Source: an uncultured Selenomonadales bacterium (GTDB lineage: Bacteria; Bacillota; Negativicutes; Acidaminococcales; Acidaminococcaceae). From it: DNA of 64,000 nt. Numbering within the stretch: position 1 is the first letter of the stretch; each line of letters opens with the position of its first letter. The notes beneath the pieces are model-generated. The model was not told the DNA's origin. It saw only the letters and a list, made by a program, of their open reading frames with translations, and searched no databases. The translations under genes and the position numbers were made by a program. The stretch lies in NCBI GenBank assembly GCA_900315345.1, contig OMYP01000011.1, forward strand, positions 1 to 64,000, written 5' to 3'. Shown here in pieces: positions 4,895 to 53,728 of the stretch.

Positions 4895-4927
4895 AGGAAC
4901 CTCGTAAAGTATCAGTTAAAGGAAAAG

Positions 4928-4959: not shown

Positions 4960-4976
4960 GTAAGTCAGCCAAAAAA

Positions 4977-7583: not shown

Positions 7584-7600
7584 TCATTATTTATATATCG

Positions 7601-7640: not shown

Positions 7641-7699
7641 TTCAAAATAAAAAATATATAAAATTCAGTTCGCTTAAAAAATCAATACGTTTTTAAAAC

Positions 7700-8671: not shown

Positions 8672-8881
8672 TTATTTTCCCTCTTCTTCCCGTTTCATAT
8701 CCTCCAAAACCGCCACAAGGGCCAGTTTTGCTTCTTCCAGCCTGTCCAGGTCGTATACGATATCCCGCACCAGGAAGTCTTTGGTGTTCACGGTGTTGCT
8801 GATACTGTCGATCACTTCATCCATTCGCTTTAACACGCCGTAGAGGATATCCTGCCGGGTTACATTTCTTTCCGTATTCAA
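8672..8881 (-). CDS. Small helical protein encoded directly before cbiK
   Basis: A 69-residue acidic, probably all-helical protein that I do not recognise. It starts with TTG (no ATG fits), supported by AAAGGAG 8 nt upstream. Heptad-like spacing of Leu/Ile/Val through the sequence suggests a coiled coil or helical hairpin. The stop codon touches the cbiK start, so translation is almost certainly coupled and the protein may be a partner or chaperone of the chelatase. It is too small and lacks metal-binding residues to be an enzyme itself. Confidence 0.7.
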   Translation of the reverse strand: MNTERNVTRQDILYGVLKRMDEVIDSISNTVNTKDFLVRDIVYDLDRLEEAKLALVAVLEDMKREEEGK

Positions 8882-8977
8882 GTTGGCATCTCCTTTATAG
8901 AATAGATTGTTGTTTTAATTATACTAATTACTAATAAAAATAGCAAGTTATTTAATTTAAAGAATCACTGCTGCCAT

Positions 8978-9555
8978 TTATCCAGTAACTGCTTTATCTC
9001 TGAAAAAACGGTATCCGTATACAACGACGCGGAACATCCAGTCAGCAAACATGGCGTACCAAATCCACAAAACATTCTTATCCAAAAACACAACAAACAG
9101 GTATGCCAGCCCAACCCGGAACACCGCCATGGCAAAAACGGCAACTTTCATGGTAAACGCTGCTTTTCCCACTGCCCGAAAATGACGGACAACAACAATT
9201 CCCCTTTAACCAGAAACACAGCCGCAATACAAAGCATTACCGATGTACTGATAAACAGCAGCTGCCCTCCGCTACGGCTGGCAGATCCATAATCCCTGCT
9301 GCCGATAAACTGGGCGCAGACCACGGTACCTCCCGCAGTCAGCGCGAACAGAACCTGGATCACCAGCCAGTTTACAGAACCCACAAGGGATACGCCTGAT
9401 ACGGTTGCCTCCCCGACGTATGCCACCATCAGCACATCAGCCATGCCTACCAGCACAGATAACAACTGTTCAATAACCAACGGCCAAAGCAGATGGAATA
9501 ACTGATTCCTGCTGAACAGCAACTCCCTTTCAGAAATTTTTGCAAAAACTTTCAT
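8978..9555 (-). pseudogene. MATE exporter with large internal deletion and frame break
   Basis: The first 125 codons (from 9555) encode the N-terminal helices of a MATE multidrug exporter up to the LLSVIFG segment. The sequence then jumps, out of frame, to the last 65 or so codons of such a protein (AVGKAAFTMK through the FADWMFR helix), ending at 8978. The junction is near 9174-9182. A normal MATE protein has about 450 residues, so roughly 240-250 codons are gone. Neither fragment should work. The gene starts 10 nt after the tetR-family gene on the same strand, so it was once the regulator's partner. Confidence 0.88.
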
Positions 9556-9565
9556 TTAATTTAAG

Positions 9566-10207
9566 TCACTCCGTTTCAATCCCCTTCAGCAGCATACGCA
9601 AAAAAATAACATATTGCGAAATAAAATCCCGGGTGCCAAAACCGGCGTCCTGGAATATTTCAATGTGATGGGCCCTTTTAAATTCGAGGCTGGCGGGATA
9701 TAAAGTCATAGCGTAACTGTTTTCACATTCCACAAAGTAAGCTGCCTGTTCTTTCGTAAAATAAGGAAAGATGCGTTGGATCAATACGGTCAGCCTGTTA
9801 AAAGACGCATTCATTTCTAACCGGAAGCGCCGGTGCATCGCAGACGAAGCGTCTTTTAAAATGACTGTGTTCACAATGCTGAACAGTGCCAGCATACGTT
9901 GGTGACGCAGCAACATTCCCGCCCAGGCAAGGCAGAACCAGTCATTATCTTTTACAGTTCCCGTAAACGTTGACTCTGCGTCTTTTACCATTTTTTCAAT
10001 ATCCTGCAACAGCATAATCAGAAAGATATCTTCTTTACAATGGAAATAATTATACAGGTTCAGCCTTGTAAAATTCAGTTTCCGGCCAATCTGGGAAAAA
10101 GTCACTTTGTCGTAGCCTATTTCCGCATACAGTTCAGCTGCCGCATCTACGATCTGCTGTATCCGTACCTGTTTCTGCTCCTCGCGTCGCGCCCTGATAA
10201 AGTCCAT
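9566..10207 (-). CDS. TetR-family transcriptional regulator
   Basis: 213 residues. An N-terminal helix-turn-helix (IVDAAAELYAEIGYDKVTF then IGRKLNFTRLNLYNYF, residues about 18-60) is of the TetR type; the rest is an all-helical ligand domain. The ATG has a good AGGAAGGA site. It sits between an intact MATE exporter (upstream, 10283-11653) and a deleted MATE gene (downstream), all on the same strand. It therefore most likely represses these exporters in response to an exported compound. The palindrome over the promoter at 11730-11773 is a candidate binding site. The ligand is unknown. Confidence 0.87.
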   Translation of the reverse strand: MDFIRARREEQKQVRIQQIVDAAAELYAEIGYDKVTFSQIGRKLNFTRLNLYNYFHCKEDIFLIMLLQDIEKMVKDAESTFTGTVKDNDWFCLAWAGMLLRHQRMLALFSIVNTVILKDASSAMHRRFRLEMNASFNRLTVLIQRIFPYFTKEQAAYFVECENSYAMTLYPASLEFKRAHHIEIFQDAGFGTRDFISQYVIFLRMLLKGIETE

Positions 10208-10282
10208 AGCGATTCCTTCCTAATTTTAAAATGAATTATGCTTTGCTGCTTTTTAAAATAATGCTATAAGGTAATCGGAATG

Positions 10283-11653
10283 TTATCTCAATTCTCCCAG
10301 TTTTTCCATATGCTGCCTAATCTTCCTTTTCAAACGCTGCACTAAAACAGTAGCGCAACCCGCCCGAATCGACTGGTCCAAAAACAGCGCCAGCCAGACA
10401 CCATACAGCCCCCAGCCCATTACATACAGAAAAAAGGCGGTCAGGAGAGGACGGATCACGGTAACGGAAACAAAAGAATAAGTTGCCACAACCGCCGTCT
10501 TACCGCTGCCCCGCAGAATTCCTGCGCACACCAGGCCTTGTGCTTCCGGAAAACCCACCAAAGCTACGCCGAACATAATAATCCCACTCATGGCCAGCGC
10601 TGCAGGATCACGGGAATAAATCATAAAAATAGGTTCCCTAAACAGAACAATGATAAGGCAGCTCACCGCTGAAAAGATCAGCCCCCATTTGATGCCGACT
10701 TTCCGGAAAGCATGCCAGTCTTTCTCATTCTTTGCACCGCAGCTTTGGCCTGCCAGCACCATGCTGGCCTTGCCCAGCCCCAAAGCAAAATCCCAGTAAT
10801 AGTCACAAATACTCATGCAGATACTGTGTACGGCAAAAGGAATGGTGCCAAGCCCTGCAGCCATGCGGGCGAAAAGTACCATACCGATCCGTTCGAACCC
10901 CTGCTCGCTGAGAATGCTGCTAAATATCGGCAGGAATTCTTTAAAATACGTTCGGCTCGGGATAAAACTTCCACCCTGGGAAAAGTATTTATTTACATGC
11001 ATGACATAAATGGTGGCGCATAAAGTGAACAGGGTCCCCACTACCGTGCCGATAGCCGCCCCTGCGACCCCCAGCTTAGGGAAAGGGCCAATGCCAAAAA
11101 TCAGTAGGGCGTTTACTATAATATTCAGTATGTTTCCTGTTACATTGGTGCGCATGATAGCGCCCGTTTCCCCAAAACCCAGCTGCACCGCCTGCAGCAC
11201 GGATGTCATGGACGTGATAAAAACAGATATGACTGCAATCTTCGCATATGTAAGCGCCTGAGGAAGATAATCCGGTCCCGCCCCCATCAGCCATAAAATC
11301 TTCTGTAAAAAAAAGAAAAATACAATATGAAGCAGCCCCATAAAAACGAAGCTCAAGAATAGAGACTGACGCATCAGTTCAGACACGCCAGCCACATCTT
11401 TTGCCCCGGCCTTACGCGCCGTAAGCAGCGTAACGGCAGACGCAATGGAACGGGCAAAGCACAGCAGCACCATTCGGGGTTGCAGAAAAATACTTACAGC
11501 AGCAATGGAAACCGCTCCAAGGGATCCAACCATGATCAGATCTGCAGCGGCAAGCACGTTCATAAAAATACACTCAACGGAAGCCGGCATGGCAATATCC
11601 ATATACCGCTTTTCATAATCATTTTTTAAAAACCTGTCAAGTAAAGCCATCAT
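10283..11653 (-). CDS. MATE-family multidrug/cation exporter
   Basis: 456 residues with the two six-helix bundles of a MATE (MatE-MatE) transporter; cytoplasmic membrane. Family segments include the N-terminal AMPASVECIF helix, the GNILNIIVNALLIFG region before helix 6, and LRGSGKT in the second half. Such proteins use Na+ or H+ gradients to expel organic cations and drugs. First gene of a likely unit MATE-tetR-(MATE remnant), with a promoter and operator-like palindrome about 80-120 nt upstream. Two start ATGs are adjacent at 11653 and 11650; GAGGG supports either. Confidence 0.88.
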   Translation of the reverse strand: MMALLDRFLKNDYEKRYMDIAMPASVECIFMNVLAAADLIMVGSLGAVSIAAVSIFLQPRMVLLCFARSIASAVTLLTARKAGAKDVAGVSELMRQSLFLSFVFMGLLHIVFFFFLQKILWLMGAGPDYLPQALTYAKIAVISVFITSMTSVLQAVQLGFGETGAIMRTNVTGNILNIIVNALLIFGIGPFPKLGVAGAAIGTVVGTLFTLCATIYVMHVNKYFSQGGSFIPSRTYFKEFLPIFSSILSEQGFERIGMVLFARMAAGLGTIPFAVHSICMSICDYYWDFALGLGKASMVLAGQSCGAKNEKDWHAFRKVGIKWGLIFSAVSCLIIVLFREPIFMIYSRDPAALAMSGIIMFGVALVGFPEAQGLVCAGILRGSGKTAVVATYSFVSVTVIRPLLTAFFLYVMGWGLYGVWLALFLDQSIRAGCATVLVQRLKRKIRQHMEKLGELR

Positions 11654-11729
11654 TCCCTCTTTTTCTGAAATATATTTTCCTTATCTGCGACATTTTAATT
11701 ACACATTGATATTTATAAATTCACAGGGA

Positions 11730-11773
11730 ATCATAGCATAAAAGAGAATAAATTTCAATATGAAATTTATTCT
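11730..11773 (-). promoter_or_regulatory. Promoter overlapped by a 29-bp palindrome (MATE-tetR unit)
   Basis: On the minus strand, -35 TTGAAA (11753-11758), 17-bp spacer and -10 TATGAT (11730-11735). A perfect dyad, AGAATAAATTTCA (11745-11757) - ATA - TGAAATTTATTCT (11761-11773), covers the -35. The arrangement fits repression by a dimeric regulator, plausibly the TetR protein two genes downstream. That pairing is inference. Confidence 0.7.
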
Positions 11774-11909
11774 AAATAAAAAAAGAAACCCAATTACGAT
11801 GTCTCGAAATTGAGCTTCCTTATATTTTGTAATACGTCAGTATAAGAACACGGTTATGCCGTGACCTCATTCCCCGTAACCGGTCATGTTTTCAGTAAAA
11901 AACTCTCAT

Positions 11910-12701
11910 TTATTTCAATTTTCCAAAATATGTATTCTTCAACTGCATAAAAGCCGCCGTTGTCTTATACTTTTCCAGACCTGCGTTCACCTTATCCAGC
12001 ATTTCCTTATTGCCTTTGGATACGGCTATGGCAATACCGGTGTCCTTATTATCAGGCATCGTTGCCATAACAGCCAGCTTGCCATTGTAGTTATTGGTAA
12101 TAAAGAAGCGGGCGGTATAATGATCCATAATGGAAAAATCCGCTTTTTTATCCGCAACCAGCTTCAGGGCTTCTTCCGCGCCACCACATTCAGTCACTTT
12201 ATTGGAATATTTTTTGGCTGCCTTTACGTGGATACTTTCGGCTTCCACAGCAATAGATTTATCCTTCAATGTGTCCGCACCGCTGAATTTAGCGCCGGTA
12301 AGGCCTACCACCACATTAGGACTGTCAAGATAGGGTTCGGTAAAATCTACTTTTCCCTTGCGTTCTTCCGTAACGGTAAGGCAGGAAATCACCGCATCGA
12401 CCTTTTTATCGTTCAGGGCTGGCAGAAGCTTGTCGAAGTCCAGGTTCAAGAATTCCACCCGGCTGTAGCCCATCTCCTGGGCCACTCCTTGCATCAGCTC
12501 AATATCAAAACCTGTAAATGCCTTGGACGCTTCCTGATAATATTCAAAAGGCGGATAGTCTGCGTCAGTCCCCACCCGCAGTACGGTTTCCGCGGCAGCC
12601 TGCTTTTGGACAGGCGCTTCAGCCGTTTGGGTTCCGCCGCCGCAACCACCAAGGACTAACAGGCAGACAACAGCAAATATAAAGCACAGAATCTTTTTCA
12701 T
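11910..12701 (-). CDS. Amino-acid ABC transporter substrate-binding lipoprotein
   Basis: 263 residues, a family-3 solute-binding protein (SBP_bac_3, HisJ/GlnH type). A lipoprotein signal (LVLGGC) anchors it outside the membrane. The binding domain opens with VGTDADYPPFEY and carries the characteristic GFDIELM and FTEPYLDS segments. It would capture an amino acid for import, but no permease or ATPase gene is adjacent, so it is an orphan component that must work with a transporter encoded elsewhere. Several small inverted repeats (11849-11863 and CGGTTA/TAACCG at 11851/11877) lie past the stop and may form its terminator. Confidence 0.88.
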   Translation of the reverse strand: MKKILCFIFAVVCLLVLGGCGGGTQTAEAPVQKQAAAETVLRVGTDADYPPFEYYQEASKAFTGFDIELMQGVAQEMGYSRVEFLNLDFDKLLPALNDKKVDAVISCLTVTEERKGKVDFTEPYLDSPNVVVGLTGAKFSGADTLKDKSIAVEAESIHVKAAKKYSNKVTECGGAEEALKLVADKKADFSIMDHYTARFFITNNYNGKLAVMATMPDNKDTGIAIAVSKGNKEMLDKVNAGLEKYKTTAAFMQLKNTYFGKLK

Positions 12702-12831
12702 GGCTTGTCCTCTTTCTGTCTGCCGGACTTGCAGACATATCGTTCCTCATTTTACATATAATGATTGCCATGTTTCGTAAATGACAACTGTTTCCTGCCA
12801 CAGGCATAACACTTTTCCGCAAGGCAGGCAA

Positions 12832-12860
12832 GGGAACCGCTGATTTAATCAGCGGTTCCC
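12832..12860 (-). terminator. Stem-loop just after the P-type ATPase gene
   Basis: A perfect 13-bp GC-rich stem, GGGAACCGCTGAT (12832-12844) with ATCAGCGGTTCCC (12848-12860). It begins 8 nt past the ATPase stop on the minus strand. There is no T run after it, so it may protect the 3' end or terminate weakly. Confidence 0.55.
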
Positions 12861-12868
12861 AGGGCTTA

Positions 12869-15800
12869 TCAGAACTTCTTATACAGTACCCGGCAGGCGT
12901 TCAGCACGCAGAGCACAGATACGCCTGTGTCTGCGAATACAGCGGCCCACATGGATGCGTAGCCGAAGAGACCCGCCGCCATGATGATGACCTTGACCAC
13001 CAGGGCGAATACTACGTTCTGCCATGCTACGCTGTTGACGGCCTTGGCAATGGCAATGGCTTTAGGAATTGCGCTCATTTCGGAGTTCATGAAGACCACG
13101 TCCGCCGCTTCAATGGCTGCGTCCGCGCCGCTGCCCATAGCCGCACCTACGTCAGCACCGGCCAGTACCGGGGCATCGTTGATGCCGTCACCTACGAACA
13201 TGACTCCGCCGTACTTGTTGCGCAGATCGTTCATTTCTTTCAGCTTATCCTGGGGCAGCAATTCCGCGCGGACTTCCTGAATTCCTGCTTCCTTTGCCAC
13301 AGCTTCCGCTTCTTTCCGGGCGTCGCCGGTAAGCATAACGGTGGTGAGGCCCTGTTTGGTAATATCCGCAACAGCCTGTTTAGCATCGTCCTTTAACGTA
13401 TCGCGGATCAGCATACTGCCCAGGTAAGTCCCATTCTTTGCTACCAGTACTTCGCTGCCGTAGTCGGCGGCGCGGTAGCCGCTGAAGTCCACCTTATAAC
13501 GGTTCATGAGGCGGGTATTACCGGCCAGCAGGGTATCGTTGCCATAATAGGCCACCAGACCTTCCCCGGCGATTTCCTCAAACCGGTCCGGACGCTGGAT
13601 GTCCAGGTTCTTTTCTTTTGCCGCGTTTACAATACTTACCGCGATGGGATGGGTAGAGACCTGTTCTGCCCCGGCGGTTGCCTTCAACACTTCATCTTCG
13701 CTGACGCCGCCTGCAGTAACCACCTGCTGGAGCACAAAGTTACCCTTGGTAACGGTGCCGGTCTTATCCATAACTACAGCCGCTACGTTTTTCAGCATTT
13801 CCATGGCGTTACCGCCCTTGAACAGGATGCCCAGCTTAGAGCCGGCGCCGATGCCCGCGAAGAAGGACAGGGGCACGCTCAGTACCAAAGCACAAGGGCA
13901 GCTGATAACCAGGAAGGTCAGGGCGGTGTAGATCCATTTATGCCAGTCGCCTGTGATGAGGGAAGGCACAACGGCCACCAGGATGGCAAGGCCTACTACG
14001 ATAGGAGTGTATACCCGCGCGAAACGGGTGATAAATTTATCAATGTACGGTTTGTTGGCTGCTGCGTTTTCCACAGAATCCAGAATTTTAGTAACCATGG
14101 ATTCCTGAAGTTCTTTTTCCACACGGATCTTCAGCATGCCGGAGGTGTTCACGCAGCCGGACAGCACTTCGTCTCCGTAGGTTTTACGTACAGGTACCGG
14201 TTCGCCGGTAACCGGGGAAGTATCCAGCAGGCTTTCCCCTTCGATTACCACGCCGTCCAGAGGGATGCGGTCGCCAACGCGGACCAGCAGGATATCCCCT
14301 ACCCTAGCTTCCGCAGAAGGAATGACTTTTACATCGTCGCCGATGAGCAGGTTCACCACTTCCGGACGCATATCCACCGCGTCCATGATCTGGTCACGGC
14401 TGCGGTCTGCGGCGCGGTCCTGGAACCATTCACCTACGCGATAGAAGAAGATAACGCCAACCGCTTCTTCCCATGCTTTGATGGCAAAGGCGCCTAAGGT
14501 GGCTACGGTCATCAGGAAGTTTTCGTCAAAAAATTCGCCTTTGGTCAGGTTCTTCAGGGCTGTCAGTACAATCTTCCAGCCTAAGATCACATAGGCAATC
14601 ACCAGGAAGTACATATGGTATTCTTCCGGTACCAGGCCCAGCCATTCCGTTACAATAAAGATGAGGCCGCCTACTACCAGTTCGAACAGTTCCCGGGCGT
14701 TTTCGCTGAGGAAGGATTTCTTTTCTTTCTTCCGTTCCGGAACCGGTGCATTGTCCATCCGTTCCGCAATGGTCACACCGTCTTCCACCTTGTCGGTGAC
14801 AGCCTGCATCTTTGCCATCAGGCCGTCATAATTATCGGCTGTAACACGAAGCTGTCCGGTAGCGTAAACCAGCACCGCTTCTTTTACTTCCGGCATAGCT
14901 TTGATGGCATCCTCCACCTTGGTAGCGCAGGCTGCGCAGTCCAGTCCCTGGATATCGTAGGTGCGGTATTTGGCAGCGCCGAACTGCTCTTTTTCGGAAA
15001 TAGTTACGCCTTCTTCTGCCTTATCGGCTGCAGCCTGCATCAGCGGCAGCAGTCCGTCATAGCTGCGGGCACTGACCCGGAGCTGGCCTGTTTCGTAAAC
15101 CAGAATTGCTTCATCGACTATAGGCAGGGCAGCGATGGCGTCCTGCACTTTTACGGAGCAGGCAGCGCAGTCCAGTCCTTCCACTTTATAGGTACGGTAT
15201 TTTTTCTTGGCAACAGCGCGAACCCGTTCCGTAATGGTAACTCCGTCCTCGGCTTTTTCAGCTGCCGCCTGCATTTTTCCCAGCAGGTCGTCATAATTGT
15301 CGGCGGTAACACGAAGCTGCCCGGTCTCATAAACCAGGGTTGCCATCTTTACGCCGGGAATGGCGGCGATAGCGTCCTGCACCTTGATGGAGCAGGCAGC
15401 GCAGTCCAGGCCTGCCACATTATAAGTACGGAATTTATCGGACTGACCCGGTCCTTCGTCCCTGGGCACTACCGTTACGTAGGACAGGAAGGAACGGCAG
15501 ATTTCCTGGAACACCGGCAGCATGGCGTCCGGATTCTTGGCTGAAACACGGAGCTGTTTTGTACCGTAACTTACAGCTGCATAAGAAACCCCCGGCAGGG
15601 ATTTTATCTTATGTTCGATTTTTGCCGCGCAAATGGGACAGTCCAGATTGATAAGGCTGTACACCCGTTTTACGTCGTCCGCATCCGGCATCCGGCATTT
15701 GCAGTGGGCCAGACTTTCCCCGCAGAAATCGCAGTATTCTTCGTGAGAATTACAGGATTCGCAGTGGCAGTTATTAGGATGGCCCGCCACATGCCCTTCG

Positions 15801-43626: not shown

Positions 43627-45390
43627 TTAAACCGTAATGGTTATAGTATTGAACCCGTGGTAACTGCGATACAGATACTGGCGGGCATGGCTTTTCACCA
43701 CATGAAGGCTCAGTGCCCTTACATCAATTTCCTCATCCCGTTCCGACCGGTCTGTCACTTTTTCCTGGGAAAGGTTAAAGGGATCGAATTTCTGGGCATT
43801 GTCCCGCAGGTGGATCTTGAAGGTCCCGTCTTCCTGGGCAATGAGGGTCAGCTGGGTCAGCACCGGTTCGTCGCCCTTCCGGCTGCCGGCCCGTTCGTTC
43901 ATTACGCCGCAGATTTCCTCCATGGCCAAACGGATGGTATTGCGGGCATGATCATCGGCTCCCCAGCTTGCCGCGAAGTTTTCCGCTTCATCCAACTGGG
44001 CAGCCACATCCTCAACCTTTCCTAAAAATGAAGCGTTGTAGACCCGGGCCGGGTCGATGGTATGCCGTTCACCTTTACTGCGTTTATAAAAATAAAGTAT
44101 GATCAACGTAACAATTTCTGCCAGGGGATACACCAGCCAGAAAAAGTAAAATCCATACTGGGACAGCAGGAAAGCCAGAGGCAGGCTGGCGCCCAGACGG
44201 CGCATAAATACTACCAGAAAGGCCCCCGTTTCATCTTCCTCCGACTGCAAATAATTCTGCAACAGCAGGGCCACTCCCATAAAGATGGTCCCGATACAGA
44301 AGATCCGGGCCGCATAATAGGCCATGCCCGCATCTGATACGTCTTCCAGGCCGAACAGCAAATCCAGTATTTGGGGATAGATTACCACCAGCACCGTTCC
44401 CAGAACGCCCCATACAAAGGAATACAGCAGAGCGTACTTGAATACCCGATGCAGCTCCCCGGTATTGCATTCAGCAAAGAATGTGGAAAACAGCGGTTGG
44501 GACGTTTTCCCTATAAATTCAAACAGGAAGATAAAGAGCACCGATAAGTTTTCAATAATGCTGAAGACTGCGACCCCTTCTGTCCCGGACATATCGGCCA
44601 GCATGTGGATAGCAATCAGGGAGAATACGGCGTCAAACACATACTCGAAAGAAGTGGCAAAGCCCAGGCGCAGAGGCTTGACAGCCTCGTTAAAGGCGCA
44701 GGTGCGGCGCTGGAAGCTCAGGTTCCCGTCTTTACGCAACATAATGTACCCAAGCGAGATCAGAACGGCAGCAGCATTTGAGAAGAAAAAGCCGAAACTG
44801 CAACCGGCAATACCCCAGTTAAAATGGAACAGCAGCAGGTAACTGATGATAAGGTTCACGACCCCGCTGGCAGTCTGTATGGAAGTGGACAGGGTATCCG
44901 CATCGTCGTTGCGCATGTACGCCGTAAGAACTTCCATTAAAATTTCGAAAGGAATACCCAGCAGGATGTAAAACAGGTAACTCTTTGCCATCTGGAAAAC
45001 CACACCGTCTTCCGGGGTGGTTCCCAGAAAATACAGGACCTGGTCTTCAAACAGGAGGCCTCCTGCGGTTATGACAAACCCGGCCACGGCAGCCAGTCGC
45101 AGGAAAAAGTTAAAAACGCCTAAAGCATCCTCCTTCTTCCCCTCGTGCATCAGGTTACTATACACGATGGCGCCTCCCATGGACAGGCCAAACACAAAAA
45201 AGGTGGCCAGAAGGAAGAGAGGCGAAATGAAACCGATGGCAGCCAGACCGTCCATGCCGATGCCATGACCAACCAGAATCGTGTCGCCGATTTCTGCCAA
45301 AGCTAGGCCTACTGCAGCGAAAGGAGCCGGAAGCACCGCCCTCATAAACATCTTACGGGTAAAATAGGCATGATCTATGGCCTTTTCCAA
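43627..45390 (-). CDS. MATE exporter fused to an RsbW-like HATPase domain
   Basis: 587 residues. Residues 1 to about 445 form a MATE transporter (N-terminal PAPFAAVGLALAEIGDT; repeat region MRNDDADTLSTS). Residues about 455-587 resemble the anti-sigma/HATPase_c_2 domain of RsbW and SpoIIAB: a helix RLAMEEICGV in the N-box position, a DNAQKFDPF G1-like loop and a final RALSLHVV where the G2 box should be. Key residues are altered: Val stands where the N-box Asn is expected, and the Gly residues of G1 and G2 are Ala or Ser, so ATP binding may be lost. It is the last gene of the cluster with an NRPS, a STAS fusion and a PP2C phosphatase. A likely role is regulated export of the peptide product. 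Confidence 0.82.
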   Translation of the reverse strand: MEKAIDHAYFTRKMFMRAVLPAPFAAVGLALAEIGDTILVGHGIGMDGLAAIGFISPLFLLATFFVFGLSMGGAIVYSNLMHEGKKEDALGVFNFFLRLAAVAGFVITAGGLLFEDQVLYFLGTTPEDGVVFQMAKSYLFYILLGIPFEILMEVLTAYMRNDDADTLSTSIQTASGVVNLIISYLLLFHFNWGIAGCSFGFFFSNAAAVLISLGYIMLRKDGNLSFQRRTCAFNEAVKPLRLGFATSFEYVFDAVFSLIAIHMLADMSGTEGVAVFSIIENLSVLFIFLFEFIGKTSQPLFSTFFAECNTGELHRVFKYALLYSFVWGVLGTVLVVIYPQILDLLFGLEDVSDAGMAYYAARIFCIGTIFMGVALLLQNYLQSEEDETGAFLVVFMRRLGASLPLAFLLSQYGFYFFWLVYPLAEIVTLIILYFYKRSKGERHTIDPARVYNASFLGKVEDVAAQLDEAENFAASWGADDHARNTIRLAMEEICGVMNERAGSRKGDEPVLTQLTLIAQEDGTFKIHLRDNAQKFDPFNLSQEKVTDRSERDEEIDVRALSLHVVKSHARQYLYRSYHGFNTITITV

Positions 45391-45527
45391 GAAGAATCCC
45401 TCTTTTCCTAAAAAATCCTAAAACAAAAATAATAATAATATAAAGAACGCTGGTCAATTTGAATGTACACTTGGCTGCTCTTCTTTTTCTGTCAGCACTT
45501 CACGAAAACTGTCTGTAATTAGATTTT

Positions 45528-48500
45528 CTATTTATTCTCCGCCAGCTTTTTAACAATTTCTCCCACGGTTTTCCCGGCAGCCATGGAGTGGATGGCCAGG
45601 GCGTAGTCAGACAGGAAACGATTTATGAAATCTTCGCTGTATTCCAGCGTGTTATAGGTCAGGTTCACATAAAAATCATCCTTGCGGCGATGGAGGAAGA
45701 ATTCAAACACTTCTTCTTCAAAGTCTTCGATTTCTTCATAGCGGGCCTTGCCGCCACAGAAATCGAATTCACCGTCAATGTCTTCCCCCTGATAGGAGAA
45801 AGCCGCAATCAGAGGCACCGCATCCCCTTCATAAAGAGCATGGCGACGGCACAGCATAATATTTTCCTGAGTCTCTTTCACAAACCGGGCTGCAGTCATG
45901 TCATCCTGCCAGCGGACACACAGGGGGTAATGCCTGTAAATGGCCCCCATAGTGCGTTCATACCGAATATCGTCACGGCCATTGTAAATGGTGAGGACTG
46001 CCGCTGCCTTTTCCCCGTTTGCCAGACTCTGGAGCAGGCCGAAAGCCGCGGCCAGAATGGTTCCGTCCGTAACGCCCTGGGCCTTGGTAAAGGCATCCAC
46101 TGCCGCCAGATCAATATGCAGGGGCACCGTTTTATCAACGGTTTTATTTTCTTCTTTCGGATCCAGATCCCCGGGCAGTTCCCCGGCCCGTTCCGTAAAG
46201 GAACGGATAAAATCCTGATTCCACTGCTGTTCTTTCTGATACTCCGGCGTGCCTGTAACGTCCTCTATGTCGTCATAATAATCAAGGATACTATACTCTT
46301 CCGGCTTCAGTGTTTCACCTAAGTACGCTCCATTTACATCTTCCAGGAAGATATTAATGGAGTCCCCGTCGATAATGGGATGCAGGAAGTCAAAATAGAA
46401 CTCTTTGCTTTCGCTTCCATCCGTTTCTTTTATTACAAAAAGACGCATGCTGAACATACGGGTTTCCGGACGGTTCATGGATTGCCGCAGCTTCGGTTTC
46501 AGTCCTTCGTATTCCTCACGCGTCACTTTTTCCACTACAGGCTTCAGGTTCGCAAGATCCCCGCTCTTCCAGCGAAGAGTTCCGTCTTTTGCAGCAGTCA
46601 GTCTGGCGTCCACTGCAGGATGGGCCAGCAGCGTTTTTTCCACGGCACCTGCCAGTCGTTCCATGTCCGTTTCCGGCGCCAGGAATACGGTAGCGTCGCA
46701 GTGAAGCCCATAGCCTTCTTCCAGTTCGTTGCCCCATTCATAGTGGAGTTCCTGAAGAGGGCCAAAGAAATGAGTATCACGTTTTATCGTTTTTAATGCA
46801 GTCTTATCATCCCGAAGAGCAAGGAGCTTCGCAATCCCGGCGGGGGTCTTGCCTTCATAGACAAGGTTGAAGTTCAGCTTCAGATCCCGGCATTCCGCAA
46901 GGAGACGAACCACACTAAGGCTGTCACCGCCAGCTTCAAAGAAATCTTCTTCCGCGCTGACCCGTTCCATGCCCAGAGCCGCGGCAAATCCTTTTGCCAG
47001 CAGGGCTTCCGTATCATTTTTCGGCGCCACGTACGGGGTTTCACTGACATATACTTCCGGCTTTGGCAACGCTTTCCGGTTCAGTTTCCCGTTCTGGTTC
47101 CGGGGAATGGCGTCCAGCTGGACAATAGCCGCCGGTACCATATAAGGGGGTTTCCTTTCCCGGATAAAGGCTGCCAGAGCTTCCCGGTCAATGGGTTCGT
47201 CCGAAACCACATAGGCAGCGATAAATTTGCCTCCTGCCGGATTGTCGCAGGCAACCACTGCTGCGTTTTTCACGGCAGGGAAATCGTGGACGACCCCTTC
47301 CACTTCCGCCAGCTCAACACGGAAGCCACGGATCTTCACCAGACCGTCCCGCCGTCCCACAAATTCAATGTTTCCATCCAGGCGATAGCGGGCGATGTCC
47401 CCCGTCCGGTATGCCGTTTCGTAATCAGGCTTCTTTGAGAAGGGGTTCGGCACAAAAGCCTCGGCGGTCTTCTCCGGACGGTTCAGGTAGCCCCCAGCCA
47501 CCTGGATACCGGCGACCCACAGCTCGCCCAAAGCCCCGGGGGGAACCCGGCGGCCTGCATTATCCACAATATAGATATCCGTATTGTCCATAGGAATGCC
47601 AATGGGGATATCCGGTTCATACTCTGTCATACTGTAGCAGGTGATGGATACCGTTGCCTCCGTAGGTCCGTATTCATTGGCCACAATATAAGGATGAACC
47701 GGCTTGAAAGGCACCAGGGTCTCGCCCCCGACCACGATATATTTTAATTCAGGACAGTCCATGGACAGGGCAAACTGCCGCCCTACCTGGCTGGGCAGGT
47801 CCGCAATATAGACATGATGTTTCTTTATAATTTCTGCCAAAGCCGGCAGGTCCAGTTTCTTTTCTTCCGGAATCACAACTATGCCGGCTCCTACTGTCAG
47901 TGCCGGATACATATCCGCCAGAGAGCCGTCAAATCCATAGCTGTTGTAACAGGTTACACGGTGCTTCGCCGTAGGTGAAAAGTAACGGCGATACCAGGCC
48001 GCATAGGCCACGATATTTTTCTGCAGCAACCGCACCCCTTTAGGCACCCCGGTGGTACCGGAAGTATAAATCAGCATAAACAAATCGTCCTGAAGAGGCA
48101 CTGCAATTTTCTCCAAAGCAGCTTTCTCCGGCAATTCCAGAGACTGGATTTCTGATATGCGAAGCACCTTGCCGTCAAACTCCGGGAAATTCCCCAGCCG
48201 GGACAACAGTTCATCGGCGATAATAATCAACCTGGCGCCGGCATCTTTCACCATAAAGGATAACCGCTCATCAGGATAGTTGGGATCCAGCGGTTCGTAA
48301 GCGCAACCAGCCCGCATTACGCCCAGAGATGCGATTACCATATATTCAGAACGGGGAATGAAGACTGCTACGGTATCCCCCCGTCCCAGGCCCTGCCTTG
48401 CGATATAACCGGCCAGCCGGGAAGCCAGATCTTTCACCTGGGCATAGGTATAGGAGCGTTCTTCGTAAATCACCGCCGTATTATCCGGATACTCAGCAGC

Positions 48501-49166
48501 CCGTTCCCAGAACTGTTCTACAATGGTTTTGGACTGGTCGTATGCATGGACGTTATCGTTAAAGCTTTCCAGTGTCTCCATGGTCTCTGCCGCGGTAACC
48601 TGCACATCCCCCAAGGTTTTTGCCACCGGCAGGCTCCGCAGAATTTCACGCAGGGAAAGGGCCATCACCCGGATAAAAGGTTCTGTATATAACGAATCCA
48701 GATAGGAAATTTCAAGTTTCCCAGGTACCGCGCTGAAAGAAATCCCAAAGCCATCCTTCTGTTCAGCCGGGATCTCTACGCCGGCAGAAAAGGCAACGCC
48801 CCGGCCCGCTTCTGTTCCCAAAAGCTCCCAGGCCTCTTTGTCTTCCCACGTATAGGAAGCGCCGGTTTCCAACATGACGCATACCGCTTCTTTCAGCGCA
48901 GCCGGTTCCATATCCAGCTTCCATTCCTGACGCAACGGCTGCCATCCTGCTCCGTTCCATACAAGGAAACCCGCTTCCGTTAAGCCGCCGTATTCTCCCA
49001 GTAGCAGTAATACCCCTGCCGCCAGCTCTTCAGCTTTCGAACCGGTATCTGCAGGAATCGAAAACGTGGCCCACGCCCCTCCGGAAACCTCCCGTCTTTC
49101 CGGAACCGGAAGGCAGTCCGGCATTTCTGATCCAAAATAGGTTGTGCACCATTCTGTTTTATTCAT
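45528..49166 (-). CDS. Nonribosomal peptide synthetase (partial C - A - PCP - C)
   Basis: 1212 residues. Residues 1-200 look like the C-terminal half of a condensation domain. An adenylation domain spans about 215-700 (YTSGTTGVPKG, NEYGPTEATV, RTGDIARY, and the final NGKLNRKAL lysine). A carrier domain follows at 715-785 with the phosphopantetheine Ser749 in GGDSL. A full condensation domain spans about 800-1212, where LHPIIDG keeps the second (catalytic) His of HHxxxDG at 929. By hand alignment the substrate pocket reads D-G-A-D-V-G-E-V-S-K, nearest to codes for basic amino acids. No thioesterase is present. The ATG at 49166 follows AAAGG. The partner condensation domain is in the upstream STAS fusion gene. 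Confidence 0.88.
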   Translation of the reverse strand: MNKTEWCTTYFGSEMPDCLPVPERREVSGGAWATFSIPADTGSKAEELAAGVLLLLGEYGGLTEAGFLVWNGAGWQPLRQEWKLDMEPAALKEAVCVMLETGASYTWEDKEAWELLGTEAGRGVAFSAGVEIPAEQKDGFGISFSAVPGKLEISYLDSLYTEPFIRVMALSLREILRSLPVAKTLGDVQVTAAETMETLESFNDNVHAYDQSKTIVEQFWERAAEYPDNTAVIYEERSYTYAQVKDLASRLAGYIARQGLGRGDTVAVFIPRSEYMVIASLGVMRAGCAYEPLDPNYPDERLSFMVKDAGARLIIIADELLSRLGNFPEFDGKVLRISEIQSLELPEKAALEKIAVPLQDDLFMLIYTSGTTGVPKGVRLLQKNIVAYAAWYRRYFSPTAKHRVTCYNSYGFDGSLADMYPALTVGAGIVVIPEEKKLDLPALAEIIKKHHVYIADLPSQVGRQFALSMDCPELKYIVVGGETLVPFKPVHPYIVANEYGPTEATVSITCYSMTEYEPDIPIGIPMDNTDIYIVDNAGRRVPPGALGELWVAGIQVAGGYLNRPEKTAEAFVPNPFSKKPDYETAYRTGDIARYRLDGNIEFVGRRDGLVKIRGFRVELAEVEGVVHDFPAVKNAAVVACDNPAGGKFIAAYVVSDEPIDREALAAFIRERKPPYMVPAAIVQLDAIPRNQNGKLNRKALPKPEVYVSETPYVAPKNDTEALLAKGFAAALGMERVSAEEDFFEAGGDSLSVVRLLAECRDLKLNFNLVYEGKTPAGIAKLLALRDDKTALKTIKRDTHFFGPLQELHYEWGNELEEGYGLHCDATVFLAPETDMERLAGAVEKTLLAHPAVDARLTAAKDGTLRWKSGDLANLKPVVEKVTREEYEGLKPKLRQSMNRPETRMFSMRLFVIKETDGSESKEFYFDFLHPIIDGDSINIFLEDVNGAYLGETLKPEEYSILDYYDDIEDVTGTPEYQKEQQWNQDFIRSFTERAGELPGDLDPKEENKTVDKTVPLHIDLAAVDAFTKAQGVTDGTILAAAFGLLQSLANGEKAAAVLTIYNGRDDIRYERTMGAIYRHYPLCVRWQDDMTAARFVKETQENIMLCRRHALYEGDAVPLIAAFSYQGEDIDGEFDFCGGKARYEEIEDFEEEVFEFFLHRRKDDFYVNLTYNTLEYSEDFINRFLSDYALAIHSMAAGKTVGEIVKKLAENK

Positions 49167-49308
49167 AATTACAAAACCTTTCTTAATCCGAGATATAATA
49201 TCTTTTACAAAAATCGTTACGCAGCCGTCTGCAACAGCCACCGCTTTTGGATTGCCTCATTTCCTATCCCGGGGTAATCCTGCCATTGACTCATATTGCG
49301 GCAGCAAC

Positions 49309-50904
49309 TTATTGCAGCAGCGACGTCACTTCACAGCTTTCATCCATCAACGCCTTAACCATCGACTCCATAACAGCGGCAAAATTCTGCATGGCTTTTT
49401 CCGAATACCTGTGGTTATCGTAGTCCAGCACTAGGGAATAGGTACCGTCATCATGGGAGTTCATTTCTATATCCAGAGAATTTTCCGCCGCTGAAATTTC
49501 ATTGGCAGGCATCTCCACAATGAAGCAATCCTTACCATCTAACGACATTTCACCCCGCCGACCCATGGTCCCTTTCTGGAGAATAAAGCTGGCGCAGCCG
49601 TCCCCTAATGCTTCTTCGTAGATCAGGTCCAGGCTCTTGCGGTATTTCATTCCCTCTTTCACCTGAGCCTCCAGTTGCCGTAAAAAGTCACCGGCGGTGA
49701 TGGGCTCGGTGAAATCCCAGCGGGCCGGGAACTGATCCAGCATCAGGCCCATAAGGCGGCGCTCCGACGAATTGATGCGGCCGTTGTGGATCCAGCCCAG
49801 GATGGCTTCCTTCCGCCCTGTGGCCTTTGCCAGGGCCAGCAAAGAAGCCCCCAGGAAGAATGTGTTTTCATTGAAGTCCTTGCCCCGGAAGAACATCTTC
49901 TCAAATTCCGGAAAGGGAACCTCGATCTCATGCTCCGGCGTGAGGCTTTCCCCGTCCAGATCCGCCGGGGGAAGGTGTTTCTCCTCATCAAAATCCGACA
50001 GCATCTTCCGCCAGTAGGTATGCCCTTCCTCCAATTCATCGGGCGGAATCTGGGATTCTTCCCTTATATATGCCGCATAGCTGGAGGAATGGTATTTTGT
50101 CTTTGCCGCGTCCTGTTGCCCGGCATCATGGTACCGCTTCGCCAGTTCCCGCCAGAACAGCATAGCAATGGCCGTGCCGTCCATAATTGCATGGTAAAAG
50201 TCCACATACAGGTATTTTCCCGTAGCCGTCTGCATAATGTAGAGCCGGTACAGGGGGTGGTTAATCAGTTCATAGGGCTGCTTTACTTCCTGCTTCCGCT
50301 GTACAAAGGCTTCGTCTGACATAATTTCCACCCGGGCTTTTTCCAGTTCCCCGTCAAAGCGCTGGCAAATATCGCCGGTTTCCGGATGGATCACCAGGCG
50401 GCAACGGAAAACATCATGATTGGCCAGGACGCCGTTTGCCGCCCCGGCCAGACGCTCCAGATCAATGGAGGGATCCAGTTCTATCAAAGCGCCGGTGTTC
50501 ATCATCGTAGACCGGGCCATGAGGAAATGGGTATCCACCATCCACCGCTGCACCGGACGCAAAGGATAAAAGGCGGTTTCCTCTCCTTCGTTTTCCCGCT
50601 GCACGATGGTGAGCAGGCTGTCAAAATGGGTTGTGCGGAAAACGCTCATCACGTCCTCTGTAGGATAGAGAATTTTAAGCTCCGCGCCCTGCCGCATCAG
50701 GTTTTTCTTGGCCATAAACAAAGAACGAAGCCCGGCAGAAGAAATATATTCCACCTGCGAAAAATCCAGCAAGACCTGTTTCATGCCCTTTGCCTGTTCC
50801 GCAATTGCCTTATCCAGTTCCGCTGTCTCCAGAATACTGATTTTACCGTTCAGTTCCAGGGTAAGGGCCGTTCCCTCTGCCCTGGGGTTGATCTGTAATG
50901 CCAT
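49309..50904 (-). CDS. STAS domain fused to an NRPS condensation domain
   Basis: 531 residues. Residues 1 to about 105 are an anti-sigma-antagonist-type STAS domain (as in SpoIIAA and RsbV). The conserved phospho-acceptor region is VEYISSAGLRSL; Ser56 aligns with SpoIIAA Ser58. From about 113 to 531 it is a condensation domain beginning YPLRPVQRW, with YHAIMDG (catalytic His238, first His replaced by Tyr). This joins a signalling switch directly to a peptide-bond-forming domain. Start: ATG at 50904 with GAGGG; GTG at 50919 is possible. Flanked by the PP2C phosphatase gene (47 nt upstream) and the A-PCP-C synthetase. Confidence 0.87.
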   Translation of the reverse strand: MALQINPRAEGTALTLELNGKISILETAELDKAIAEQAKGMKQVLLDFSQVEYISSAGLRSLFMAKKNLMRQGAELKILYPTEDVMSVFRTTHFDSLLTIVQRENEGEETAFYPLRPVQRWMVDTHFLMARSTMMNTGALIELDPSIDLERLAGAANGVLANHDVFRCRLVIHPETGDICQRFDGELEKARVEIMSDEAFVQRKQEVKQPYELINHPLYRLYIMQTATGKYLYVDFYHAIMDGTAIAMLFWRELAKRYHDAGQQDAAKTKYHSSSYAAYIREESQIPPDELEEGHTYWRKMLSDFDEEKHLPPADLDGESLTPEHEIEVPFPEFEKMFFRGKDFNENTFFLGASLLALAKATGRKEAILGWIHNGRINSSERRLMGLMLDQFPARWDFTEPITAGDFLRQLEAQVKEGMKYRKSLDLIYEEALGDGCASFILQKGTMGRRGEMSLDGKDCFIVEMPANEISAAENSLDIEMNSHDDGTYSLVLDYDNHRYSEKAMQNFAAVMESMVKALMDESCEVTSLLQ

Positions 50905-50951
50905 TTGGCTTGCCCTCACTTTCAGTAATTTATAATTATTTATCCCAATAT

Positions 50952-53108
50952 TTATCCCAAATACCGCAATCCAACCATAGTTATATCATCGGACTGCTCC
51001 GCCGTTCCGGCGAAGGCGCCTACATCCTTCCGGACTGTTTCCAGGATTTCCCGCACCGCAACCGCGCCGCCGATCCGGTCCAGGCTCTCTTTAAGTCGTC
51101 CTTCGGAATACAGCTGGCCGGCCGGATCCATCGCCTCAGTTACGCCGTCCGTATACAGGAACAGCATATCCCCGGGAGCGAGTTTCAGCCGTTCTTCACG
51201 GTACGAAGTTTCCTCGTCAATGCCCAGGACCACCCCTCCGCTTTTCATCGGCAGGTACACAAAACGATCCGTTGCCTTATAAAACGCCAGAGGCGGATTA
51301 TGCCCGCAGTTCACAAAGTTCATTATGCCGGTCTTTAGATCCAGCACTCCCACAAAAGCAGTGACAAATAACATTTCTTCGTTATTTGAGCAAATCTGCC
51401 GGTTTGCTTTCTCCACCAAACCGGCTATGTTGGTTTTCCCATCTACATACATTAAGGCGCTTTTCAGAATCGTTTTGGAAATGGCCATAAAGAGGGCTGC
51501 CGGGACTCCTTTTCCGGAAACGTCGGCAATAGTAATTCCAAGCCGGCGTTCATCCAGCATATAGAAGTCATAAAAATCACCGCCCACTTCTTTTGCCGGA
51601 TCCATGGACGCAAACAGTTCAAAACGGGAGTTCCCCACAAAATCCGGTTCCAGATGTGGAAGCATCCCCTTTTGGATGTTGGTGGCCACAGAAAGCTCTG
51701 TGGCAATTCGTTCTTTTTCCGCCGTGACTTTTGAAAGATTCGAAATATAGGTTTTCAGGTCCGCGCTCATGTTATTCACACTGTCCGCCAGCTCTTCTAT
51801 TTCGTCCCCTGTTTTCACGTCCAGCGTTTTGTCCAGATCCCCCTGGGCAATCTGCTTCACGCCGTCCTGCAGTTCTAATATGGGTTTGACGAATCGTCTG
51901 GCTGCCCATGTACTGAAAGCAACCCCTCCTGCCAGCAGCAGCGCCATTACAGCAGCCATAGCGGTTCCGTATGAAGCAAGACTCCCCCTCATCTCTCCCC
52001 TGAAATTTTCCGTCCATTCGCGAATGCCCTTGGCTGCTTCCTTTGCAGGCGCCAGCGTGGCCTCTTTTTCTACCAGTGTACCAAAGCTCCAGCCCGTCTG
52101 TTTTATCGGTGCATAGGCCAGATAATATTCTGTTCCGTCAACAGAGACCACCTCAACTCCTGTCTTCCCGTCCACCATTGCCGATACAATCCGGGTAAAA
52201 GAGTTCTGTCCCGACTTACGAAGATCCCGGCCGTCCGGTGTAAAGGACAGGACGCCGTCCTTTTTGGAAGACGCAATAATCTCCCCGTTCCTGCCAATCA
52301 CAATAGATTGCTCACTGGCGCCTGTAACAGCTGTCGCCATGATTTCATCGTAAATTGCCCGGGCATCCATATCCATACCGATGACCCCTGCAAAACCCGC
52401 TGCGTCATAATACGGCGCAACGCAGGAAATACAGGGATTCCCTGTTTCGGTATCTATATACGTATCCGTAAATACAGGACCGGAAGCTTCTTTCCCCAGC
52501 TTATACCAAACCCTATCCCTTACATCATAAGAAGAACGATACGGCTCCTCTGTGAGAAAAGGTTTATTCTGGCTTTTCTTAACCCTGATGGTATATCCGT
52601 TTCGGGAACCCAAGAACACGATCGGATAATATTCGTTCATTTGTATAAAGGAGTCGGCGATTTTTGATTCAATATCAATTTCTTTCTGCAAAGCCGGGGA
52701 CACCCCCTGCCGTACAAGGGCCGGACTGTAATGAATATAAGGTTTGCCCGGAGGAACATCAGTGTACAACGCATTGGGAAGCGAATCTGCGCCGGATCCG
52801 ATTCCTTTCTTCAACAAATTATTCATATTATCTGCAAGATATTTGGTATCTTCCGCAGCTTCCACCATTTCGCGATTCATATCCTGCGCCCGGACCCGGG
52901 TAATTTCTTCCATATGTTTTTGGATTTGTTTTTCTACCAGTTCCTCTGCATATTCAGAAGCACTGGAACTCAGGGCATCTGCCTCTGAATTCAGAGTCTT
53001 ACTGGCATTGTACAGTCCAACTGTAAAGAACAGTGCCAGCAGCAGAAAGGTCAGCAGAATTCCGGAAAGAACCAGCAGTAAAACCTTTTTTCTTATGTCG
53101 AGCTTCAA
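50952..53108 (-). CDS. Membrane sensor PP2C (SpoIIE-type) phosphatase with Cache and HAMP domains
   Basis: 718 residues. Transmembrane helix at about 8-33; extracytoplasmic double-Cache sensor (about 35-375, with RDRVWYK and TYIDTETGNPCIS); second helix about 388-410; HAMP (about 408-462); then the SpoIIE/RsbU serine phosphatase domain to the end. Metal-binding motifs EVGGDFYDFY, ADVSGKGVPAALFM, NCGHNPP, LYTDGVTEA and SDDITM are intact. It should dephosphorylate a STAS-domain partner in response to a small extracellular ligand. First gene of the NRPS cluster; the STAS fusion is the next gene. Confidence 0.92.
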   Translation of the reverse strand: MKLDIRKKVLLLVLSGILLTFLLLALFFTVGLYNASKTLNSEADALSSSASEYAEELVEKQIQKHMEEITRVRAQDMNREMVEAAEDTKYLADNMNNLLKKGIGSGADSLPNALYTDVPPGKPYIHYSPALVRQGVSPALQKEIDIESKIADSFIQMNEYYPIVFLGSRNGYTIRVKKSQNKPFLTEEPYRSSYDVRDRVWYKLGKEASGPVFTDTYIDTETGNPCISCVAPYYDAAGFAGVIGMDMDARAIYDEIMATAVTGASEQSIVIGRNGEIIASSKKDGVLSFTPDGRDLRKSGQNSFTRIVSAMVDGKTGVEVVSVDGTEYYLAYAPIKQTGWSFGTLVEKEATLAPAKEAAKGIREWTENFRGEMRGSLASYGTAMAAVMALLLAGGVAFSTWAARRFVKPILELQDGVKQIAQGDLDKTLDVKTGDEIEELADSVNNMSADLKTYISNLSKVTAEKERIATELSVATNIQKGMLPHLEPDFVGNSRFELFASMDPAKEVGGDFYDFYMLDERRLGITIADVSGKGVPAALFMAISKTILKSALMYVDGKTNIAGLVEKANRQICSNNEEMLFVTAFVGVLDLKTGIMNFVNCGHNPPLAFYKATDRFVYLPMKSGGVVLGIDEETSYREERLKLAPGDMLFLYTDGVTEAMDPAGQLYSEGRLKESLDRIGGAVAVREILETVRKDVGAFAGTAEQSDDITMVGLRYLG

Positions 53109-53202
53109 CAGAAGTACCTCCGTCCGGACTATGCGTTAACAATAGCAAATTAAAAACTGATATGGTTTATCCGATTAAACAAAAATCATTCTTAATTATT
53201 TT

Positions 53203-53231
53203 ATTATAACAGGATGTAAAGAAAAAAAACA
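53203..53231 (-). promoter_or_regulatory. Candidate promoter of the PP2C/NRPS cluster
   Basis: Minus strand: -10 TATAAT (complement of 53203-53208) with a weak -35 TGTTTT (complement of 53226-53231) at 17 bp. About 90 nt of leader precede the phosphatase start. Confidence 0.5.
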
Positions 53232-53270
53232 TATTTATTTACGGAAAACGCCGAAAAAACTAAAATACCG

Positions 53271-53459
53271 TTAGGTTAGCCTTGACAAACCAGTAAGAGT
53301 AGTTTATTATTTAGTTAGTCTCGGCTAACAAAGATTCTAGAAGGCTGGGATTTGTTTTTGCACAACAAGTTAGCTTTAGCTAATTTTAAAGCTTAATTCC
53401 CTGTCAGCGACTCAGGAAAGCAGGGATTTATTTTTAGCCGACGGTTAGCTTCAACTAAC
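53271..53459 (+). promoter_or_regulatory. feo promoter with four iron-box-like repeats
   Basis: A strong promoter: TTGACA (53282-53287), 17-bp spacer, TATTAT (53305-53310). Box 1 (53271-53282), TTAGGTTAGCCT, equals the first half of the DtxR/IdeR consensus and overlaps the -35. Box 2 (53315-53328), box 3 (53370-53383) and box 4 (53445-53458) all have the form TTAG-N6-CTAA; box 3 is TTAGCTTTAGCTAA. Repression by a DtxR-family iron sensor is the likely function (inference). Confidence 0.75.
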
Positions 53460-53515
53460 TTATTTCCTCTAACTTATATAGAAACAAACCCTGTATTTCC
53501 GAGGAGGCATTCATC

Positions 53516-53728
53516 ATGTTACCACTTCCCACCGCACAGGAAGGCGAAGTAATTGAAATCAAAAAGATCAGCGGCAACGACAGTACCCGTCTGCATCTGG
53601 CGGAAATGGGCTTTACAGTAGGCACTAAAATTACCGTAGTCACCTGTATGGGAGGCAATATGATCCTGCAGGTGAGGGATTCCCGGGTTGCCTTGGACGA
53701 GTCCATGGCGCGACGGATCATGTACTGA
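53516..53728 (+). CDS. feoA: FeoA-domain protein (first copy)
   Basis: 70 residues, an SH3-like FeoA protein that helps FeoB import Fe2+ from the cytoplasmic side. Typical features are the opening basic LPxAQEGE turn, the LAEMGFTVGTKITV strand pair and the final DESMARRI helix. The ATG follows GAGGAGG. First gene of the feo operon. Confidence 0.92.
   Translation: MLPLPTAQEGEVIEIKKISGNDSTRLHLAEMGFTVGTKITVVTCMGGNMILQVRDSRVALDESMARRIMY

Follow-up and report, generated by a model that had tools for sequence, protein, structure and literature searches.

A rumen Negativicute gene cluster that may place natural-product synthesis and export under a partner switch

A condensation enzyme and an exporter that carry switch domains

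Bacterial partner switching is best known for freeing sigma factors. In the window analyzed here (the whole stretch of 64,000 nucleotides [nt] of contig OMYP01000011.1), four genes on the minus strand (43627-53108) carry switch domains fused to a condensation enzyme and to an exporter. They encode, in order, a dCache-HAMP-SpoIIE sensor phosphatase, a fusion of a STAS domain to a condensation (C) domain (STAS-C), a half-C/A/PCP/C synthetase of the nonribosomal peptide synthetase (NRPS) type, and a fusion of a MATE transporter to an RsbW-like HATPase. We propose that they form a synthesis-and-export module regulated by partner switching, where RsbW and SpoIIE set the state of the STAS domain and STAS-C docks on a pseudokinase domain of the exporter, a reading to which we give about an even chance of being correct. 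The gene parts, the state of their motifs, the gene order and the behavior of the genes as a unit can be read directly from the DNA, while all functions given below are predictions from sequence. The open reading frames (ORFs) were confirmed at these coordinates, and all the domains named in the original prediction score above the curated Pfam cut-offs. Many of the loci compared are contigs of metagenome-assembled genomes (MAGs), and the hidden Markov models made for this analysis rest on small sets, and their E values refer to small databases.

The phosphatase and the STAS domain keep their switch residues

The phosphatase (50952-53108, minus strand) was identified from Pfam and its translation as a dCache_1-HAMP-SpoIIE/PP2C protein, with dCache at 52083-52937 (E = 1.4e-23), HAMP at 51753-51908 (E = 2.3e-14) and SpoIIE at 50964-51554 (E = 5.3e-45), the latter also recovered by the whole-genome search. 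The acidic metal-binding motifs of PP2C enzymes (VGGDFYD, ADVSGKG, YTDG and SDD) are intact by eye in the translation. Its best NCBIfam match is SiaA (NF038263), at 89.2 bits for an equivalog cut-off of 700, and it was not assigned to that equivalog. Of the amino-acid motif described for dCache domains (PMC10104139), the window copy has the R.WY part. Across the family, however, the D173 position is not conserved, and for this reason we claim no ligand.

The STAS-C fusion (49309-50919, minus strand) was delimited by Pfam and alignments, with STAS at 50590-50904 (E = 6e-13) and the C domain at 49339-50574 (E = 1.1e-39). The condensation motif YHAIMDG is intact (H243, D247 and G248), and the HxxxDG signature is invariant in 25 of 25 aligned proteins. 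The AlphaFold2 model of the fusion has a mean confidence (pLDDT) of 82.7, and its fold matches in the PDB are C-domain folds. In the STAS domain, Ser61 corresponds by motif alignment to the phosphorylation site of SpoIIAA/RsbV, and this serine is present in all 32 STAS-C fusions. Of the 10 invariant STAS positions in 16 aligned proteins, 4 lie in the 8-residue phospho-loop (hypergeometric P = 0.0025).

The exporter carries an eroded RsbW fold

The last gene (43627-45390, minus strand) encodes a MATE transporter (44071-45390; MatE, E = 1.1e-23) followed by a degenerate RsbW-like HATPase (43633-44019; HATPase_c_2, E = 1.2e-7). The transporter part shows the MatE repeats, the MATE fold and the aspartate of the first transmembrane helix (D36, nearly invariant); in the AlphaFold2 model of the whole protein (pLDDT 83.6) it matches PDB 6fhz with a TM score of 0.86. 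A PDB sequence search with the HATPase tail gave no match, and a PDB fold search with the full model gave only MATE-type folds among the first 50 matches listed, so that the HATPase assignment rests on Pfam, on profile comparison and on the predicted beta-alpha-alpha-beta-beta...alpha-beta-beta order.

The nucleotide-binding boxes were compared between 44 MATE-linked HATPase domains of Negativicutes and six RsbW-like proteins encoded as stand-alone genes in genomes of this group. None of the 44 has the complete set of N, G1 and G2 boxes, whereas all six stand-alone proteins do. The N-box asparagine, kept in all six, is lost in 41 of the 44 tails; the three tails that retain it are from Anaerovibrio and have no G2 box. 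The G2 glycines are lost or altered in the MATE-linked domains. In the window, the boxes read EEICGV, RDNAQKF and RALSLHV (asparagine to valine in the N-box, glycine to alanine in G1), against EEILVN, ADHGRPF and GGFGIFL in the RsbW of the same genome. The exporter HATPase is thus probably a pseudokinase that has apparently lost its kinase activity, and no HATPase with all three boxes is found inside the four-gene cluster. Of the switch partners in the original prediction, the phosphatase and the STAS antagonist are supported, with PP2C catalytic residues and the STAS phosphoserine site kept, while the reading of the exporter HATPase as the RsbW-type kinase is not supported, and an intact RsbW is encoded separately.

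The four genes behave as a unit around a constant core

Of 13 other genomes in the genus, 6 encode full-length STAS-C relatives, and such relatives also occur in Selenomonadaceae. A neighborhood survey of 75 named loci revealed that the four genes keep their order in 12 loci besides the window, in Succiniclasticum, Selenomonas and their relatives. The original prediction is thus not refuted on either of the grounds that it had set, domain scores and gene conservation. These class 1 loci show either the plain layout of PP2C, STAS-C, NRPS and MATE/HATPase (L074, L075, L076, L078, L079, L080, L081 and L082) or the same layout with an extra free STAS gene (L084, L086, L098 and L135). Class 2, in Schwartzia and relatives (L089 and L090), has this layout without the NRPS. 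Class 3, comprising the second copies of Selenomonas and the loci of Anaerovibrio, has STAS-C and a MATE with a more divergent tail and no neighboring phosphatase, and class 4, in Selenomonadaceae and Quinella, has a bare C domain and the MATE. Profile comparison shows the class 3 and class 4 tails to be homologs of the window HATPase (T1-T2, E = 2e-8; T1-T3, E = 1.5e-8; T2-T3, 3e-37). What stays constant is thus a core of (STAS-)C and MATE-HATPase; a locus can do without the phosphatase and even without STAS, and the NRPS is optional too, since loci with this core and no NRPS exist. The system is also wider than the suggested switch acting on peptide synthesis and export, many relatives having C and MATE-HATPase without an NRPS. 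Co-occurrence with SpoIIE across Negativicutes is seen in classes 1 and 2 but not in class 3 or in genome G011, where no phosphatase is next to the locus.

The pairwise distances of the four proteins over 12 to 13 loci are highly correlated (r = 0.90 to 0.97). In genome G010, a natural cluster-null sister of S. ruminis, a deletion scar (C19; L192:4786-4920) lies between the phosphoesterase gene and a STAS-RsbW-SpoIIE trio, where about 96 bp from the beginning of the phosphatase gene run directly into the sequence that precedes the trio. One deletion removed all four genes, which therefore behave as a unit.

Some loci of the survey deserve separate mention. In Selenomonas sp. RGIG9219 (L098:537-7274), a second, diverged set of STAS, C/A/PCP/C synthetase and SpoIIE lies directly upstream of the standard cluster, which suggests a module duplication. 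The second-copy STAS-C and MATE pairs of Selenomonas and Anaerovibrio (L093, L140, L099 and relatives; families F10 and F7) have as neighbors an RND pump of the AcrB type and a pair of membrane proteins with DUF6056. A contig labeled Fretibacterium (Synergistota; L079) carries a full cluster, with a STAS-C 64% identical to that of the window and a broken or incomplete NRPS ORF, and is either a mis-binned MAG contig or a case of horizontal transfer.

STAS and HATPase could also be a static dimerization pair that tethers the enzyme to the exporter, with no role for phosphorylation and a phosphatase acting on other targets. The degeneracy of the HATPase and the STAS-C and MATE loci without a local SpoIIE (second copies of Selenomonas, Anaerovibrio and G011) fit this explanation. 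Yet Ser61 and its loop are the best-kept part of an otherwise variable STAS domain, and the PP2C gene precedes STAS-C (or its STAS/RsbW) in most NRPS-bearing loci. We consider such a static tether unlikely, although slightly less so than the other alternatives.

Relatives outside Negativicutes suggest a possible origin from an active kinase

A wider search of 398 genomes across the phylum, for MATE proteins that match the model from end to end, tail included, gave such matches outside Negativicutes in three genomes (G075, G304 and G375); G192, a relative of G075, carries the same operon. The gene orders are STAS, MATE/HATPase and dCache-SpoIIE (L208, from G075, 4512-8704, and L209), STAS, a gene of no assigned family, MATE/HATPase and SpoIIE (L210, from G375, 8096-13386), and MATE/HATPase and SpoIIE (L211). 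These operons encode neither an NRPS nor a condensation domain. In L210, the MATE tail keeps the N-box and G2 (EEIVVN and IGGLGIYLVKK) while G1 reads RDDAVRF, and this protein is probably a MATE joined to an active RsbW. Given these near-intact boxes, the Negativicute form looks like a derived pseudokinase, and we infer a direction from active kinase to pseudokinase. When relatives of this near-intact MATE-kinase were sought among 20 genomes of its order, only G375 itself was found.

These data bear on the explanation in which the MATE HATPase is itself the RsbW-type kinase, phosphorylating and releasing STAS-C, with the local SpoIIE resetting the system. The HATPase_c_2 score above the cut-off in the window and L210, which belongs to an unrelated class and makes it probable that the wider family includes an active MATE-kinase, are in its favor. 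A kinase role for the exporter domain was rejected on the loss of the box motifs described above, and a separate canonical RsbW kinase is present; for the Negativicute cluster, we regard this explanation as quite unlikely.

A separate kinase and the proposed mechanism

Elsewhere in the genome of the window lie genes for a STAS-RsbW pair of the canonical type and for another dCache-SpoIIE protein. In four Succiniclasticum genomes, genes for STAS, RsbW and SpoIIE (SpoIIE2) directly follow the MATE-HATPase gene, and locus L088 has the order PP2C-STAS-RsbW-STAS-C-NRPS. An apparent 257-residue fusion in L088 is a frame artifact, the STAS and RsbW genes being separate. RsbW was found in 7 of 7 cluster-positive genomes of the genus versus 3 of 7 cluster-negative ones (Fisher test without phylogenetic control; P = 0.07), a co-occurrence that is suggestive only, the rpoB tree of the genus being poorly resolved and containing one aberrant row. 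The absence of a sigma factor, noted from the start, was confirmed among the neighboring genes of the cluster; none was recognized, by eye only, beside the RsbV-RsbW pair of the same genome.

In the partner-switch mechanism that we favor, the stand-alone RsbW (in trans here, in cis in relatives) would phosphorylate the STAS domain at Ser61, and this phosphate would be removed by the SpoIIE phosphatase once dCache receives an extracellular signal. The unphosphorylated STAS would then bind the HATPase pseudokinase of the exporter, as SpoIIAA/RsbV binds SpoIIAB/RsbW. Docking would bring the condensation enzyme to the exporter mouth, with the A-PCP synthetase brought along through it, and the docked STAS-C would open or license the exporter, so that the product would be made where it is exported. 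Because the exporter domain probably cannot phosphorylate the bound STAS, docking would last until the separate kinase acts. Phosphorylation, docking, gating and the product are the parts that we infer.

Several observations weigh against this mechanism. G011 has no local phosphatase gene, and the C-only relatives keep the HATPase-like tail without a STAS domain, so the tail may have another role. The least eroded HATPase copies, those of the class 1 loci of Selenomonas, keep G1 and part of G2 (RGIGLHM) and may still bind nucleotide. RsbW occurs in genomes without the cluster, and the test of their association is weak. Finally, the STAS-RsbW-SpoIIE trio of G010 outlived the cluster, so it is not dedicated to it and has functions of its own. 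The idea that the fused STAS acts as a decoy or a sensor input, with synthesis or export load reported to the RsbV-RsbW-SpoIIE network of the cell and the enzyme not controlled by that network, would accommodate trios that exist independently of the cluster (G010, G013 and G011) or adjoin it (four genomes), but it leaves unexplained both the cognate RsbW-like fold of the exporter and the STAS-MATE/HATPase-SpoIIE operons without NRPS, and we find it very improbable.

The synthetase, its product and a possible polyamine branch

The synthetase gene (45528-49241, minus strand) likely starts at the methionine of MNKTEWC at 49166. Besides the A, PCP and C domains recognized in the original prediction (A, 47058-48524; PCP, 46821-46988; C, 45579-46718), it encodes an N-terminal half-C (48537-49166). 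The Pfam E values are 2.2e-74 for AMP-binding, 5.8e-13 for AMP-binding_C, 5.6e-7 for PP-binding and 1.9e-25 for Condensation. The N-terminal region of about 200 residues matches the C-lobe of condensation domains alone (hhalign against C profiles, E = 1e-8 to 3e-9) and is accordingly a half-C without the catalytic half. The PCP carries GGDSL and the C-terminal C domain LHPIIDG, with the active-site histidine and aspartate kept. PDB matches are LgrA, TycA and SrfA-C, and TIGR01733 of NCBIfam scores 369.7 bits for a cut-off of 317.4. By sequence, the protein thus has the A domain, the PCP with its serine and the catalytically competent C domain of an NRPS. As for a release domain, neither a thioesterase nor a reductase was found in the synthetase or the adjacent genes, and the product may be released through the terminal C domain. 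The only condensation domains in the whole 2.3-Mb genome are the two of this cluster.

The A-domain pocket, with positions that we take from a motif alignment to GrsA, reads D235, G236, [A/T/G]239, D278, I299, [V/G]301, E322, V330 and [S/A]331. It is nearly constant over all class 1 synthetases, which therefore probably make the same product. Its two acidic residues give a low-confidence hint of a basic amino acid as substrate.

In 14 loci of rumen Selenomonadaceae and Quinella (L105, L106, L108, L109, L113, L119, L128 to L131, L134, L139, L142 and L147), a PotA-like gene comes directly after the bare C gene, at a distance of -3 to 272 nt, and in most cases PotB/C/D-like genes come next; the MATE-HATPase gene is often just upstream of the bare C. 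The best NCBIfam models of these Pot-like genes are spermidine/putrescine transporters, with scores below the equivalog cut-offs. Amine-accepting condensation domains exist, such as VibH, and together with the Pot context this suggests that the C-only branch may make polyamine conjugates. Negativicutes carry polyamines on their peptidoglycan (PMC10628300), and a link of the C-only branch to these is speculation. A PotABCD link was rejected for the window cluster, there being no pot genes beside NRPS-bearing clusters.

More tentatively than for the window cluster itself, we suggest a general architecture in which an RsbW-fold pseudokinase on a transporter would be a phospho-controlled docking port that gates the exporter and recruits an enzyme, from the NRPS clusters of rumen Negativicutes to the STAS-MATE/HATPase-SpoIIE operons of other Firmicutes. 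In this view, one branch (C-only, MATE and PotABCD-like uptake) would make and export polyamine conjugates.

Host and operon boundaries

The host is a Succiniclasticum-like rumen Negativicute, its near relatives being Succiniclasticum/Acidaminococcaceae of ruminant origin. An intrinsic-terminator-like hairpin of 17 pairs (43583-43543, minus strand), the strongest stem in a consensus scan, lies 44 nt past the MATE-HATPase stop and by its sequence marks the end of the operon. The gap before the MATE-HATPase gene (45391-45527) is 137 nt long in the window and contains a promoter-like site (10/12 match, 45457-45429); in G001 (L061), a near relative, the gap is only 26 nt.

On one side, the cluster is flanked by genes for an FAA hydrolase and DNA polymerase IV, a phosphoesterase gene and gltB, and on the other by divergent feoA-feoA-feoB. 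The intergenic region at this upstream boundary (53109-53539) holds three TTAG-N6-CTAA palindromes, at 53315, 53370 and 53445. The whole window has 4 of them versus 0.75 expected, and these three (53315-53458) precede feoA-feoA-feoB, adjoined by a sigma-70-like promoter (11/12 match, 53282-53310). By sequence, they look like DtxR/MntR-type metal-regulator boxes. The feo genes adjoin the cluster only in G000, G001 and G011, and an iron link was rejected, the divergent feoAAB and its palindromes being absent from most cluster loci.

Comparison with known systems

If the proposed mechanism is true, the switch acts posttranslationally on a natural product's enzyme and exporter, each of which contains switch domains of its own, and it would offer direct access to the way in which bacteria link synthesis and secretion. 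It would also mean that RsbW folds can turn into pseudokinase docking ports, and it would point to a metabolite that is conserved, uncharacterized and made by abundant rumen bacteria. Variants that occur naturally with or without phosphatase, kinase, STAS or NRPS, and the active-looking MATE-kinase outside Negativicutes make it directly testable. In line with the original prediction, which knew of no described system of this type, we found no paper, among the open-access ones searched, in which a condensation enzyme and an exporter carry fused switch domains.

The cluster shares with RsbU-RsbV-RsbW and SpoIIE-SpoIIAA-SpoIIAB of Bacillus a sensor PP2C phosphatase, a STAS antagonist with a phosphoserine site and an RsbW-fold protein, and the canonical Rsb trio is also present in cluster-bearing genomes. 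It plausibly works like an RsbUVW system. However, it has no sigma factor, its STAS is fused to an NRPS condensation domain, and its RsbW fold is fused to a MATE and catalytically degenerate; we do not file it as a classical RsbUVW system because a functional in-cluster kinase and a sigma factor are both missing.

Natural-product MATE exporters such as SolL, MbnM and ClbM share the MATE fold and a gene beside a synthetase, but the NCBIfam scores of the window MATE are far below the SolL and MbnM cut-offs, and to our knowledge these exporters have neither a HATPase tail nor switch genes. Stand-alone or starter condensation domains of NRPSs (RzmA starter C and SgcC5) share the C fold and HxxxDG, while the enzyme of the cluster has an N-terminal STAS and in its C-only relatives an ABC uptake operon of the polyamine type comes after the gene.

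Outputs other than sigma factors are known for partner switching in BtrU-BtrV-BtrW of Bordetella, for type III secretion, and in SypA of Vibrio (PMC8256260), as well as in SiaABCD of Pseudomonas (PMC7647112, PMC8457831). As in the cluster, the Btr switch governs a secretion process and not a sigma factor, but its components are free-standing proteins on a type III machine, whereas here the switch domains are covalently part of the enzyme and the transporter. SiaABCD shares a membrane sensor PP2C phosphatase and a phospho-protein whose binding activates an enzyme; unlike the cluster, it acts on a diguanylate cyclase, and none of its switch proteins is fused to the output. Non-sigma outputs of partner switching are thus already known, and what appears to be new is that the switch domains are fused to an exporter and a condensation enzyme.

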